Virus record (IMG/VR): IMGVR_UViG_3300021142_000024 | Coordinates: 1 to 64,000 of that record | Source of the DNA: a virus | Length of the DNA: 64,000 nt | Reading direction: 5' to 3' (one strand) | Part shown: piece by piece, positions 9,732 to 59,419 of the stretch | Layout: each line of letters starts with the position of its first letter | How positions within the stretch are numbered: position 1 is the stretch's first letter | Notes under the pieces: generated by a model | The model's input: the letters and a program-made list of their open reading frames with translations, nothing else | Database searches by the model: none | What the model was told of the DNA's origin: nothing | Translations under genes and position numbers: made by a program

Positions 9732-9804
9732 TATTCCTGATGGGTATCGATCCCACTCCTCTGCCTTGAAAGGGCAGCGACTCAACCATTTTGTCCTCAG
9801 GAAC
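9732..9804 (-). tRNA. tRNA-Glu(TTC)
   Basis: Acceptor GTTCCTG pairs with CAGGAAT (one G-U). The anticodon stem CTGCC/GGCAG encloses CTTTCAA, so the anticodon is TTC. The T-loop is the variant ATCGATA. No CCA is encoded. Confidence 0.85.
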
Positions 9805-9838: not shown

Positions 9839-10024
9839 TTATGCAGTATAATATCCAGTAAAAGCGGGTTCTAAATAAGATGCCAGTTTTTTGATCTCAC
9901 TGTCTATAGGAGATCCACTCTTACTAAATCCAATAAATAGACTTGATGGCTTAATAGCCCTAAGTATAGAGCGTACCTTTTTACCATCTACTTCATGATC
10001 TTTAAAAATTACAATTTTCTTCAT
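9839..10024 (-). CDS. Hypothetical protein (61 aa)
   Basis: Small alpha/beta protein starting MKKIVIFKDHEVDGKKVR. No recognised family. It lies between tRNA-Glu and the tmRNA gene. Confidence 0.5.
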   Translation of the reverse strand: MKKIVIFKDHEVDGKKVRSILRAIKPSSLFIGFSKSGSPIDSEIKKLASYLEPAFTGYYTA

Positions 10025-10057
10025 AGATTTTATTTTATTAATTTATTATTAAAATAG

Positions 10058-10457
10058 TGGACATGTTGGGATTCGAACCCAAGTCTAACAATTAATCCTA
10101 TAAAACTCATTCACAAGCTTATTCTCGTTTTCTAACTAGACAAAATATATAAATCACTATTTATCGTGGTATTCAGTGCTGATTTAAACATCGTATTTAT
10201 AATGCTGGGTGTTCAATCATTTAAACCACTCACACTTTTGCAGGCACTTCTGTTTCTAGGGTATCATGCGACCCCACTGGACTAAGCCGCCATTGCGAAC
10301 TCACCATCAGCGAACGCCATAGCGTCCTCGAAAGTCCATGTAGATAATTCTACGTTTGCATTTATTTTTTATATAGGTTATTAAAGTGTTTCCAATACTA
10401 ACACTGCCTGCATCATTTTAAAGAACTACATTGCCATCAATTACCAATCTCATGCCC
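10058..10457 (-). ncRNA. ssrA: tmRNA (SsrA)
   Basis: About 400 nt. The 5' end GGGCATG (from 10457) pairs over 7 bp with CATGTCC (10059..10065), followed by discriminator A; CCA is not encoded. The T-arm is a perfect TTGGG-TTCGAAT-CCCAA. About 100 nt in, a reading frame GCA ... TAG (10282..10359) encodes a 25-residue tag, ANVELSTWTFEDAMAFADGE followed by FAMAA; the AMAA ending is typical of proteolysis tags. The rest can form the usual chain of hairpins. It would rescue stalled ribosomes together with host SmpB; no smpB is in the window. The tag start is inferred from position. Confidence 0.88.
10282..10359 (-). other. tmRNA tag-peptide reading frame (25 codons + TAG)
   Basis: The resume codon is placed at GCA (10357..10359), about nt 99 of the RNA, close to the usual position in tmRNAs. 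The tag ends EFAMAA. A much later start (GCT GAT GGT GAG ...) would give a nine-residue tag and cannot be excluded. Confidence 0.7.
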
Positions 10458-10564: not shown

Positions 10565-10888
10565 TTAATTATTTTTTCTTCTTTTTTGTCTTTTCTCATT
10601 TATTTTTTGAATCTGAGAACATAATTCATACTCTTCAAGTTCTATTAATTTTGGCATTTGAAGATTTAGGGTTTTTAAATATTCTTTTCTTTCAAGTGAA
10701 AAAGTAATTTCTTTAGATTCAGAAAATACAACTTGGAATATTTCAATTTTTGGTTTTTTATTTTTTATTGCCCATAAAATAGTCTTTACCATTTTTAATA
10801 CAAGATCAGAATCTTTATTTTTGATTTTATCAAAAAATTCACTCTGATTCTTAAATGATAATACATGTGCTGCCATTAATACTGTCAT
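10565..10888 (-). CDS. Hypothetical helical protein (107 aa)
   Basis: Lys/Glu-rich helical protein with a strongly basic C-terminus (KINEKRQKRRKNN) that may bind nucleic acid. Four-base overlap with the upstream ART-like gene suggests translational coupling. Function unknown. Confidence 0.6.
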   Translation of the reverse strand: MTVLMAAHVLSFKNQSEFFDKIKNKDSDLVLKMVKTILWAIKNKKPKIEIFQVVFSESKEITFSLERKEYLKTLNLQMPKLIELEEYELCSQIQKINEKRQKRRKNN

Positions 10889-11583
10889 GATTTTAGGTCT
10901 TCTACTCTAGTTATAGCACTAGGAGGTATATTATTTAAAGTGTAACAACCATTTGATTTATAATTTGGATCTTCATATAATTTAAAATAATCTCCAGGTA
11001 TTTTATCAGTATCTATAGAAAAAAGTGTCCAGTTTTTAATTCCAGTTTTATAAGTAAAATTATCAACTAAATATAATGCTGATTCTTTTGAAAGAGCTAA
11101 ATAAACTCTATCTGGATGGTAAGACGCCTTTGATCTAGATTTTGGAACTAGGCCAATTTTTTCTATTTTATTTGAATTTATAGTAGGGGCTATATGATAT
11201 AATATTTTAGGATATTTTTCTATAATTATATCAAATTTTGCCTCAAAAAATATTGAAAAAGTAACTCCGTCTTTTATATAATATTCTGCATATTTTTTCT
11301 CATATTTACCTACATATTCTTTAGATTGCATAAAAGAAGGAAACCAACCTAGATTATTAGCATCTTTAAGAAGATCATTAAATTTTGATAAATCTATTTT
11401 TTGTGAAAATATAACTTTAAAAGTATTATCAATATTATCACTTTTAAAATTTAAAATATTTGAATATTTTCTATGTAAAATAGACACTGTTTTATTTAAT
11501 TGCACAGTCTTTATTTCACCCTCTTTGAGGTTTATAGAATACTCTTCTTTATATAAATCTAAAAGTATATTTAGTAATTTCAC
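10885..11583 (-). CDS. ART-fold-like protein (232 aa)
   Basis: The C-terminal half has KILYHIAPTINSNKIEKIGL, then PDRVYLALSKESALYLVDNF and LFSIDTDKIPGDYFKLYEDP, a pattern like ADP-ribosyltransferase / KptA-type domains (LYH, GL-x-P, rVYL). The N-terminal ~110 residues are unassigned. It may modify host proteins or RNA by ADP-ribosylation, as T4 Alt/Mod do, or act on RNA 2'-phosphate; the catalytic residues are not certain. It forms a coupled pair with the downstream helical protein. Confidence 0.6.
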   Translation of the reverse strand: MKLLNILLDLYKEEYSINLKEGEIKTVQLNKTVSILHRKYSNILNFKSDNIDNTFKVIFSQKIDLSKFNDLLKDANNLGWFPSFMQSKEYVGKYEKKYAEYYIKDGVTFSIFFEAKFDIIIEKYPKILYHIAPTINSNKIEKIGLVPKSRSKASYHPDRVYLALSKESALYLVDNFTYKTGIKNWTLFSIDTDKIPGDYFKLYEDPNYKSNGCYTLNNIPPSAITRVEDLKS

Positions 11584-14216: not shown

Positions 14217-14288
14217 AGGACATACCCAGAACTGACCTGGGGACTCATGCTTACAAGGCAAGTATTTTTCCAATTAAACTACACGTCC
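14217..14288 (-). tRNA. tRNA-Thr(TGT)
   Basis: Acceptor GGACGTG/TATGTCC, loop CTTGTAA giving TGT, T-stem CCCAG/CTGGG with an atypical T-loop (GTCAGTT). One mismatch in the anticodon stem. Confidence 0.78.
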
Positions 14289-21546: not shown

Positions 21547-22251
21547 TTAATTTATTGAATTAAACAGGGCTTCTATATACTGTATTGTTGGGTAATAATT
21601 ACCTCTGCCTTGATATTTTTTATCAACAGCGGCTTTAAGTTCTTCGAGTGTGCCTCTAAAACAGCCAGCCGATATCATTTTATTGGAGAATGTGATGGTG
21701 ATTATCCTACTTATTTCTCCTAAAGATGATATTGTCATATAATCTGATGTCTTCTCAACCTTAGCATTACCATATACCAGAGCATTACCAGATACATGAG
21801 CATTACCAGATACATGAGCATTACCAGATACTTTAGCATCACCAGATACTTTAGCATTACCAGATACTTTAGCATCACCAGATACATGAGCATTACCAAA
21901 TACCAGAGCATTACCAGATACTTTAGCATTACCAGATACCCAAGTATTACCAGATACATAAGCATTACCAGATACTTTAGCATTACCATATACCTGAGCA
22001 TTACCAAATACCCAAGCATTACCAGATACTTTAGCATTACCAGATACATGAGCATTACCAGATACTTTAGCATCACCAAATACCTGAGCATTACCAGATA
22101 CCCAGGCATTTTCGGTTAAGTTATTTATCGTCTCGATAAAGCCGCCTTTTGTTCCAGCTTTGCCCCATTTACAATCTTCAGTTAGTTCAATACGGTAGAG
22201 TGGTTTATCATTAAATTGTATTGATTCGTCAGTTAATTTATACGGTGTCAT
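21547..22251 (-). CDS. Left-handed beta-helix repeat protein (234 aa)
   Basis: After an N-terminal cap (YRIELTEDCKWGKAGTKGGF) come about 19 hexapeptide units of the form [KHQWY]V[SFY]GNA/DA (residues ~48-160), predicted to stack as a left-handed beta-helix. The C-terminal ~70 residues (ISRIITITFSNKMISAGCFR...) form a separate cap. Similar proteins occur in phages and Bacteroidetes without a firm function. At DNA level it is an 18-bp tandem repeat. Confidence 0.8.
   Translation of the reverse strand: MTPYKLTDESIQFNDKPLYRIELTEDCKWGKAGTKGGFIETINNLTENAWVSGNAQVFGDAKVSGNAHVSGNAKVSGNAWVFGNAQVYGNAKVSGNAYVSGNTWVSGNAKVSGNALVFGNAHVSGDAKVSGNAKVSGDAKVSGNAHVSGNAHVSGNALVYGNAKVEKTSDYMTISSLGEISRIITITFSNKMISAGCFRGTLEELKAAVDKKYQGRGNYYPTIQYIEALFNSIN
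21775..22110 (-). repeat. 18-bp coding tandem repeat (about 19 units)
   Basis: The unit ATTACCAGATACxxxxGC (plus-strand view) recurs without interruption. Because its length is a multiple of three and it avoids stops, two other frames are also open across it. Expansion or contraction would change helix length without a frameshift. Confidence 0.9.
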
Positions 22252-41160: not shown

Positions 41161-41712
41161 TTAAATTATCTCATCAATCAATCCTAATTTAAGAGCCTCT
41201 TTTGGAGATATATACCACTCTTCTTTTCTGAGTTTAATATCATCAAGTTTCTTCTTTGGTATTTTAGAGCGTTCTAAAATAATAGAATCATACATATCTT
41301 GTAATCTATGACCCTCTTCAACTTCTTTATGATGAGTACTAAGTTTTGTGTCAGATCCTATTCCCCAAGAGACTTCATGATACATTAAAGTAGATCTTTT
41401 TGACATTGATCTATGATGTCCTACACATAATATTGGTAGTGCCATAGATTGAGCTTGACCTAATATAGTAATATGTACTGGTATTTTTGAAAGTTCAATA
41501 CAATCTATAAGTCCAAATCCTCTATAGACTTCTCCACCCTGTGAATTTATTATTAATTTTATAGGTTCTAATTTTTCAATAGGTACATTAGAATCTAATT
41601 CATTAATTTCTAATATTTGAGATATACAGTCATTTACATTCTCATCATCAATATCTCCTAAAACCACTATTCTACTTTGAGGTTTTTCCTCTTTTTTATT
41701 TTTAGAACTCAT
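41161..41712 (-). CDS. ClpP-like serine protease
   Basis: ClpP/crotonase-fold peptidase (183 aa). It has LIINSQGGEVYRGFGLIDCI, the nucleophile Ser89 in GQAQSMALPI, the general-base His112 in LMYHEVSWG, and the C-terminal YISPKEALKLGLIDEI typical of ClpP. In phages such proteins process heads or degrade host proteins. No ClpX/ClpA partner is in the window. Confidence 0.88.
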   Translation of the reverse strand: MSSKNKKEEKPQSRIVVLGDIDDENVNDCISQILEINELDSNVPIEKLEPIKLIINSQGGEVYRGFGLIDCIELSKIPVHITILGQAQSMALPILCVGHHRSMSKRSTLMYHEVSWGIGSDTKLSTHHKEVEEGHRLQDMYDSIILERSKIPKKKLDDIKLRKEEWYISPKEALKLGLIDEII

Positions 41713-57769: not shown

Positions 57770-59419
57770 TTACATACCCATGCCCATCATAGGATCTGGA
57801 GTGTCTTGCTCTTTATCTGATTTTTTTTCAAGTACCACTGCATCTACTGTGAGTATTGTACCAGCTACACTCGCTGCATTTTTTATAGAAGATATTACTA
57901 CTTTTGTAGGATCAAGTAGACCAGCTTCAATACCATTTACTACTGCTCTATTTTTAGCATCAAATGTTGTAAATACATCGTCTTTAGAATTTACATTATA
58001 TAAAATTTCATACCAATTCTCAATACCTGAATTTGATAGAATTGTTTTAAATGGCGCATAGCAGGCAGTTTCTACTATAGAAAGAGCAATCTTTTCATTT
58101 GAATTCCAATTTATAGTATTATTCTTTATAGACATAAATGCTTTGATAAGTGCAATACCACCGCCTGGAAGTATACCTTCTGCAAGTGCGGCTTTAGTCG
58201 CCAGAAGTGCATCTTCTACTCTGTCTTTCTTTTCTTTGATCTCAATTTCAGAATTTCCACCTACATTTATAATAGCAACTCCACCTACAAGTTTACCAAG
58301 ACGCTCTTGAAGTTTCTCTTTTTCAAAAAATGATGTTGCACTTTCTATCTGCTCTTTAATCTCATTTGCTCTATTAGAAATTGCTGTCTCATCCCCTTTA
58401 CCATCTACTATTGTAGTAGTCTCTTTAGCTACTGTGGCAAGACGTGATTTACCTAGATATTTATCTAATTCTGAAGATGAGAGTTTATCAAGTTTATGTC
58501 CTTTGCTTTTTGACATTACTGTACCTCCAGTAAGAATTGCCATATCTTCAAGAATCAAAGTTCTTCTATCTCCAAAGTCTGGTGCTTTTACTGCACATAC
58601 TTTTACTACATTTCGCATTTTATTTACGATCATTAGTGCGAGTGCCTCATCTCCAAAGTCTTCTGCAATTACTAGAAGTGATCTATTTTCAGTATTTGCT
58701 TTCTGTAGAAATGGAATCATCTCAGCTGCAGTTTGAATACGACCATCATAGAGCATAATATAGCAATCATCTAGTACTGCATTCATTGTGGTATTATTAG
58801 TCACAAAATATGGACTCTTATATCCACGATCAAATTGCATACCTTCAACTACTTCAAGAGTAGTTTCACCGGTCTTAGATTCTTCAATAGTCACAATACC
58901 TTCACGACCAACTTTATCTATAGCAGCAGAAATCAGCTCTCCTACTTCAATATCATTATTACCTGAGATAGTTGCCACTTGTTTAATTTGATCTTCTGTG
59001 CTGACATCTACTGATAGTGATTTAAGTTGATCTATAATCATAGAGACTGTCTTATCAATACCGTGCTTAACTTCTACTGCATTAACTCCTTGACGTATAG
59101 TCTTCATTCCCCCTTGAATCATCTTTGTTGCAAGTAATGTAGATGTTGTTGTACCATCACCGGCCTCATTTGCTGATTTAATTGATACTTGTTTTACCAT
59201 CTGTGCTCCAAGATCTTCTATATCATTTTCAAGTCTATTAAAGGCCTTTGAGCAAGTTACTCCGTCTTTTGTGGCTTTTACTTCACCATAAGGTTCACGT
59301 ATTAATACTGTGCGACCTCCTGGACCGAGTGTTGATGATACTATATCATTGAGTTTATTAATTCCAGCAAGAAGTTGCTCTTTAAGTTCTGTCCCTATTA
59401 AATGTTTTGTTTCGCTCAT
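57770..59419 (-). CDS. groEL: GroEL chaperonin
   Basis: Full-length Hsp60 (549 aa). [10 protein letters not shown] near residue 31, [10 protein letters not shown] (Asp52 position), [14 protein letters not shown] (~87-100, ATP site), [37 protein letters not shown], and a C-terminal GMGM tail. Folds proteins with the co-chaperonin encoded at 60410..60700. A whole phage-encoded GroEL/GroES pair is uncommon and usually reflects a special need, such as folding phage structural proteins. Confidence 0.96.

Follow-up and report, generated by a model that had tools for sequence, protein, structure and literature searches.

A 64,000-nucleotide stretch of phage DNA (the window), which comes from a 75,622-base virus record that is itself a fragment, encodes a tmRNA whose 25-residue tag belongs to a family of tags restricted to viruses within the sets that we searched, with about 116 viral loci (118 counted, two of them being the window itself). 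What is new here is the tag, a previously undescribed family; phage tmRNAs as such were already known. From sequence comparison we propose, at slightly better than even odds (about 0.52), that the gene serves a working phage trans-translation system, in which the tag would combine an AA-ending degron with a motif that docks onto a conserved protease or adaptor, probably one of the host.

The tmRNA gene and its phage setting

The element is a tmRNA, an RNA that releases stalled ribosomes and marks the incomplete protein for degradation, and is called by two programs (Table 1). The Rfam model RF00023 matches over its full length at positions 10055-10457 (-) with 62.2 bits and E=6.7e-22, above its gathering cut-off of 47 bits, thereby passing the covariance-model search that the preliminary description had proposed as a check, and ARAGORN reads the tag ANVELSTWTFEDAMAFADGEFAMAA followed by a stop, with the coding part at 99-176 of the gene. 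That description had placed a phage-encoded ssrA gene at 10058-10457, one base off the present boundaries, and had left out the strand, which is minus; the GCA resume codon, the TAG stop, the length of about 400 nt and the 25-codon tag are all as first described, and the acceptor and T-arm are both present. The acceptor, GGGCAUG/CAUGUCC, contains G3.U70, a pair that is the mark of alanine tRNAs. Nearly all tmRNAs have an A at position -4 of the resume codon, and the window gene has one as well, in the context UAAAU followed by GCA. Both G3.U70 and A(-4) are found in 20 of 20 aligned tmRNAs of the family. In E. coli, the equivalent A86 sets the tag frame, and its mutation dramatically reduces or abolishes activity (PMC2481249).

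The minimum free energy fold of the window tmRNA has a z of -2.15. A PK1 candidate that we placed by hand ends 12 nt 5' of the resume codon. An automated search for H-type pseudoknots returned candidates in 19 of the 20 family tmRNAs, with p=0.08 for the window, where the pairing differs from the hand-placed PK1, and 0.00-0.19 in 18 of the 19 relatives, the other one giving no candidate. Promoter and terminator scans around the gene scored no better than shuffles.

Table 1. Features of the tmRNA locus and of possible partner genes in the window
Feature	Position	Strand	Basis or remark
Phage tmRNA (ssrA), one-piece, 401 nt	10057..10457	-	ARAGORN and Rfam; same gene in contigs G018 and G044
tRNA-like domain, 3' half (T-arm and acceptor strand with U70)	10058..10090	-	CCA not encoded
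PK1 candidate, AGUGUU/AACACU and UAUUGG/CCUAUA, one U.U mismatch	10372..10405	-	Placed by hand
A at -4 of the resume codon, equivalent of E. coli A86	10363..10363	-	Invariant; A95 of the 20-sequence alignment
Tag frame GCA...GCT TAG, 25 codons and stop (ANVELSTWTFEDAMAFADGEFAMAA)	10282..10359	-	ARAGORN; frame and stop position kept in relatives
RNA hairpin GUAGA-AUUA-UCUAC in codons VELST, just after the resume codon	10340..10353	-	Folding and compensatory changes
Conserved tag core ELSTWTFEDAMAF	10312..10350	-	About 116 viral loci
Degron-like C-terminal AMAA and stop codon	10282..10296	-	Sequence; nearly all relatives retain the AA end
107-aa protein directly upstream of the tmRNA	10565..10888	-	Kept adjacent in five related lineages
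61-aa protein directly downstream of the tmRNA	9839..10024	-	Kept near the tmRNA in six lineages
ClpP-type serine protease, possible partner	41161..41712	-	PF00574, E=4.8e-22

The phage shares replication genes and gene order with immutovirus-like Bacteroidota phages. Its DNA polymerase, GroEL, ThyA and DnaB are 50%, 53%, 48% and 50% identical to those of Flavobacterium phage immuto, and the order of the polymerase, GroEL and glycosyltransferase genes is similar in the two. Since both the replication genes and the gene order resemble this one relative, we infer a Bacteroidota host. There is no tmRNA in immuto. A phage GroEL gene lies at 57770-59419 (-) of the window and is also found in immuto and in several tag-bearing relatives. 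Two contigs are close kin of the window: G018 is 99.997% identical to it over 33 kb, and G044, about 98% identical, extends 27 kb past its left edge.

Like other phage tmRNAs, this one sits in a tailed phage, here with many tRNAs. Viral tmRNAs have been described in mycobacteriophages Bxz1 and Wildcat, Bacillus phage G and Melnitz (PMC4131195, PMC9004378), and the view that phage tmRNAs are known but rare agrees with their presence in 402 of 18,146 phage genomes (PMC9004378). In the window, ARAGORN found 15 tRNAs and Rfam matched three more; among those that ARAGORN missed at default settings are tRNAs at 9732-9804 and 14217-14288 (-), read as Glu-UUC and Thr-UGU. A reading of the tag's TAG stop through a suppressor tRNA was rejected, the tRNA at 14217 being tRNA-Thr(UGU) and no suppressor. 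Three related contigs (G005, at L083:12188-12263, and also G014 and G035) carry a phage tRNA with an 8-base anticodon loop (CTCCTATA) to which ARAGORN gave no assignment, and which could be of frameshift type.

The genes next to the tmRNA encode small proteins. The 107-aa protein matched no Pfam or PHROG family, and its AlphaFold model (pLDDT 86) had no PDB match with E<0.4; the 61-aa protein (pLDDT 94) had no significant PDB match. The C terminus of the former, EEYELCAxIKK, looks UVR-like and might mark an adaptor, but no Pfam model or fold match supports this. Ends of the EEYExCA type, with a UVR (McsA-like) look and no Pfam support, were seen at L216:1103-1429 (+), L090:5175-5630 (-) and 10565-10888 (-) of the window, and the small phage proteins that bear them are located near ClpP or tmRNA. 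Two genes upstream of the tmRNA, a 232-aa protein (10885-11583, -) has a faint RNA 2'-phosphotransferase-like match (phrog_5470, E=0.028) and may be an enzyme of the ADP-ribosyl-transfer type. Farther away, at 21547-22251 (-), lies a gene for a protein of short GNAxVSGNA repeats with matching DNA repeats, which is probably a beta-solenoid.

A tag family confined to viruses in the sets searched

Using a degenerate DNA pattern for WTFEDAM, we matched 44 viral contigs, with 42 of the 44 matches lying in tmRNA-type tag frames, and a variant pattern with Met in place of Trp gave 53 viral matches, 51 of which are tags, on contigs of up to 271 kb. Looser core patterns added further variants. The family is defined by a core, ELS[TSD][WM]TFEDAM[AS]F, in the tag frame, and by the consensus [AD]-x-V-E-L-S-[TSD]-[WM]-[TNS]-F-[EG]-D-A-M-[AS]-[FW]-[VAM]-G-A-D-x-A-V-A-A, of about 22-26 residues. 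Occurrence of the same tag family in G018, G044 and about 115 other viral loci indicates that the long tag is more than chance. We also scanned viral contigs independently of the tag, with the tRNA-like domain as the only query, and obtained at least 120 matches. Among the matches listed, ELSTMTF[EG]DAM was recovered in 4 of 96 viral tmRNAs, whereas 77 of the 96 have tags of at most 16 aa (8-16), so the family is real and recurrent, and long viral tags such as the 25-aa tag of the window are exceptional. Long tags of 21-31 aa unrelated to the family occur in other viral tmRNAs (L293, L294, L255, L326, L349 and others).

Neither the tag nor its core, in either variant, matched any of the named phages, and a query with an approximate Bxz1 tag gave no match. 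The literature that we searched contained no text with WTFEDAM or FEDAMAF and no report of a shared tag family. Among solved structures, the sole core match, to a designed protein, scored 4 bits per repeat and was set aside as chance.

Several tmRNAs of the family are misread by ARAGORN, which assigns them wrong tags (APVSLMGL, VKADLEHL..., VNKPEHYLSAP; loci L009, L013, L014, L024, L026, L027, L038 and L155-L201), the conserved tag frame being located elsewhere in these genes; databases built on ARAGORN will therefore carry wrong phage tags. In several lineages (contigs G008, G013, G015, G019, G040, G197, G199 and G216), a tmRNA with the same tag family lies within the late tail/baseplate block and not in the early tRNA region.

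The family was then sought in bacteria. A scan of 84,980 prokaryote species, one genome each, for the exact WTFEDAM pattern, the Trp form of the core, gave 20 matches, none of them in an ARAGORN-called tmRNA, and the broader core patterns, applied to Bacteroidota only, found nothing in 396 genomes. We read 32 Bacteroidia tags: all 32 are 8-10 aa long and of the GENNYALAA type, ending in YALAA or YAMAA, and none contains the core. A host origin of the tag is thus ruled out for Bacteroidia (32 tags) and for the sampled Bacteroidota (396 genomes). These lengths, together with a commonest bacterial tag length of 10 aa (PMC11915505), bear out the preliminary remark that a 25-residue tag is unusually long. 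In its G3.U70 tRNA-like domain, its A at -4, its length of about 400 nt and its AA-ending tag, the window gene resembles the one-piece tmRNA of Bacteroidota (RF00023), and it differs from it by a tag of 25 rather than 8-10 aa, by the 13-residue core and by the hairpin just after the resume codon. That the tag family is viral and occurs in no bacterial tmRNA examined suggests that these viruses keep their own “destroy me” label for a purpose.

Selection on the tag peptide and on RNA structure

Aligning 20 tmRNAs of the family shows a diverged backbone, with a mean column identity of 47% and an unalignable middle, and nearly invariant core columns, an invariance that is biased upward as most relatives were recruited via the conserved core. 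Codon positions give a second view. Across 41 distinct 15-codon cores, diversity at positions 1/2/3 is.157/.124/.371 (permutation p=4.5e-4); in codons +7 to +10, which lie outside every search pattern, it is.269/.189/.606; and pN/pS is 0.39 for codons that the first pattern left free. All these values are descriptive because related sequences are treated as independent, but the dependence on reading frame is plain. As diversity at third positions is about three times that at second positions, the tag peptide is under selection.

The RNA itself is also constrained. The hairpin in codons VELST folds below the mean of its own synonymous recodings in 22 of 22 distinct leaders (singly at p<=0.05 in 3), and its stem changes in a compensatory manner (GAAGA/UCUUC, UCUGA/UCAGA, GUUGA/UCAAC), the GUUGA/UCAAC double change in locus L193 being synonymous on both sides. 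Part of the ELST conservation may thus be structural. One could go further and suppose that all core nucleotides are kept for the structure of the mRNA-like domain, namely the hairpin and a helix around the stop codon, and not for the peptide; the presence of the hairpin in every distinct leader, with compensatory and even synonymous changes, and a TGGAC that can pair with GTCCA 3' of the stop codon in many members speak for such a constraint. We nevertheless consider it improbable as the explanation of the core, given that diversity concentrates at third positions downstream of the hairpin too, and that W/M, T/N/S and stem changes alter the RNA and leave the peptide core in place. The conservation of WTFEDAMAF is not explained by the VELST hairpin.

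Ribosome rescue, the other role put forward in the preliminary description, is the default function of any tmRNA, and proposals for why phages carry one are likewise general: to keep ribosomes free and to recycle host proteins. The gene could accordingly be a plain backup that only frees ribosomes when host mRNA is degraded, with a usual ClpXP degron as its tag; the additional residues would then have no function of their own and be retained through common ancestry. The AA-ending degron does resemble host tags, many phages have a tmRNA with an ordinary short tag, and rescue in E. coli tolerates changes of the tag. Yet a freely replaceable core should drift, and this one has been kept while synonymous sites and the backbone diverged, making a backup of this kind unlikely. 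Rescue leaves the conservation of the tag unexplained, because in E. coli an altered tag template hardly affects rescue (PMC2481249).

Possible partners and the fate of tagged proteins

The tag ends in -AMAA in the window and in -AVAA or -ALAA in most relatives. A terminal AA is the classical ClpX signal, and the window tag has the small or hydrophobic residues and the AA end of a ClpX-type ssrA degron. In the mechanism that we favor, the phage tmRNA would be charged with alanine and, together with SmpB (the host's or the phage's own), would enter stalled ribosomes, where a 25-residue, two-part tag would be added to the unfinished protein. The final residues would act as a ClpX-type degron, like that of the presumed Bacteroidota host. 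The core ELSTWTFEDAMAF, probably folded as a short amphipathic helix, would be a docking motif peculiar to viruses and would recruit tagged proteins to a single conserved partner, for which an AAA+ protease of the host or its adaptor (Lon, ClpC or ClpX type) is the best candidate. Unfinished proteins would in this way be broken down faster, or by another route, while host mRNA is being cleared. The earlier suggestion that tagged proteins may be redirected to another protease fits these data, and conservation of the core speaks for a dedicated partner. By contrast, the core might protect or divert, with a protein of phage or host binding, storing or marking the tagged chains; its hydrophobic and acidic residues are suited to binding, but the AA end that is conserved is what ClpX classically recognizes, and stabilized truncated proteins would have no simple role, so that we regard this fate as very improbable.

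We searched the phage sequences for partners of the favored docking mechanism. The 75.6-kb record contains no SmpB, and SmpB for the window tmRNA is presumed to be the host's; a complete SmpB gene is present in the sister contig G044 (G044:5594-6019), and in G005, G014 and G035 one lies about 4 kb downstream of the tmRNA. Huge phages are reported to carry tmRNA and SmpB together (PMC7162821), and G044 similarly unites both trans-translation partners in one phage genome; unlike in that report, whose searched text gives no tag peptides, the tag is described here, and just 4 of 94 tag-bearing records, which are mostly fragments, show an SmpB. ClpP is found in 8 of the same 94. These counts indicate that neither ClpP nor SmpB is a universal partner; a protein of the host is the likelier candidate for a general one. 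The E. coli adaptor SspB is not expected in this role, as it occurs only in certain proteobacteria (PMC8138137).

The ClpP-type gene in the window nonetheless raises the possibility of a private pathway, in which the tag would feed a phage-run protease made of phage ClpP and host ClpX or ClpC, perhaps aided by a small protein encoded next to the tmRNA. ClpP genes are found 3-4 kb from the tmRNA in G004, G016 and G222. A T4-type prohead protease adjoins the capsid gene in immuto and in the related 170-kb contig G222, which suggests that the window ClpP is probably not the head protease and implies that the ClpP of G222, with its separate head protease, does not serve head maturation. However, no ClpP turns up in the majority of tag-bearing records, contigs of >200 kb among them, the best PHROG match of the gene is labelled head maturation protease, and a search for an adaptor among the tmRNA neighbors gave none; we thus think a phage-run protease quite improbable.

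The favored reading, in which the core directs tagged proteins to a conserved and probably host partner, has a parallel outside phages. Mesoplasma florum has a long tag, with a sequence that is presumably unrelated to that of the phage tag. As in the phage, residues lie ahead of the C-terminal end, and there they are specific for another protease: the tag is degraded by Lon because ClpXP is missing (PMC8138137). Unlike the phage tag, it belongs to a cellular system, in a host without ClpXP (PMC8138137). Handling by Lon in M. florum shows that extensions of the tag can switch the protease (PMC8138137).

The conserved core provides a concrete bait for the partner, and a new tag for orthogonal protein degradation could come out of it. 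A phage that needed nothing but rescue could let its tag drift or adopt the host's. That the core is instead kept across very diverged phage tmRNAs, and is missing from the tags of the presumed host group, argues that what becomes of the tagged protein is important to the virus. It is possible, and we advance it tentatively, that a widespread group of large phages has its own rescue tag, whose 13-residue signal, not seen in the bacterial tmRNAs examined, would deliver tagged proteins during infection to one particular degradation factor of the host or the phage; trans-translation would then have been rewired by viruses.
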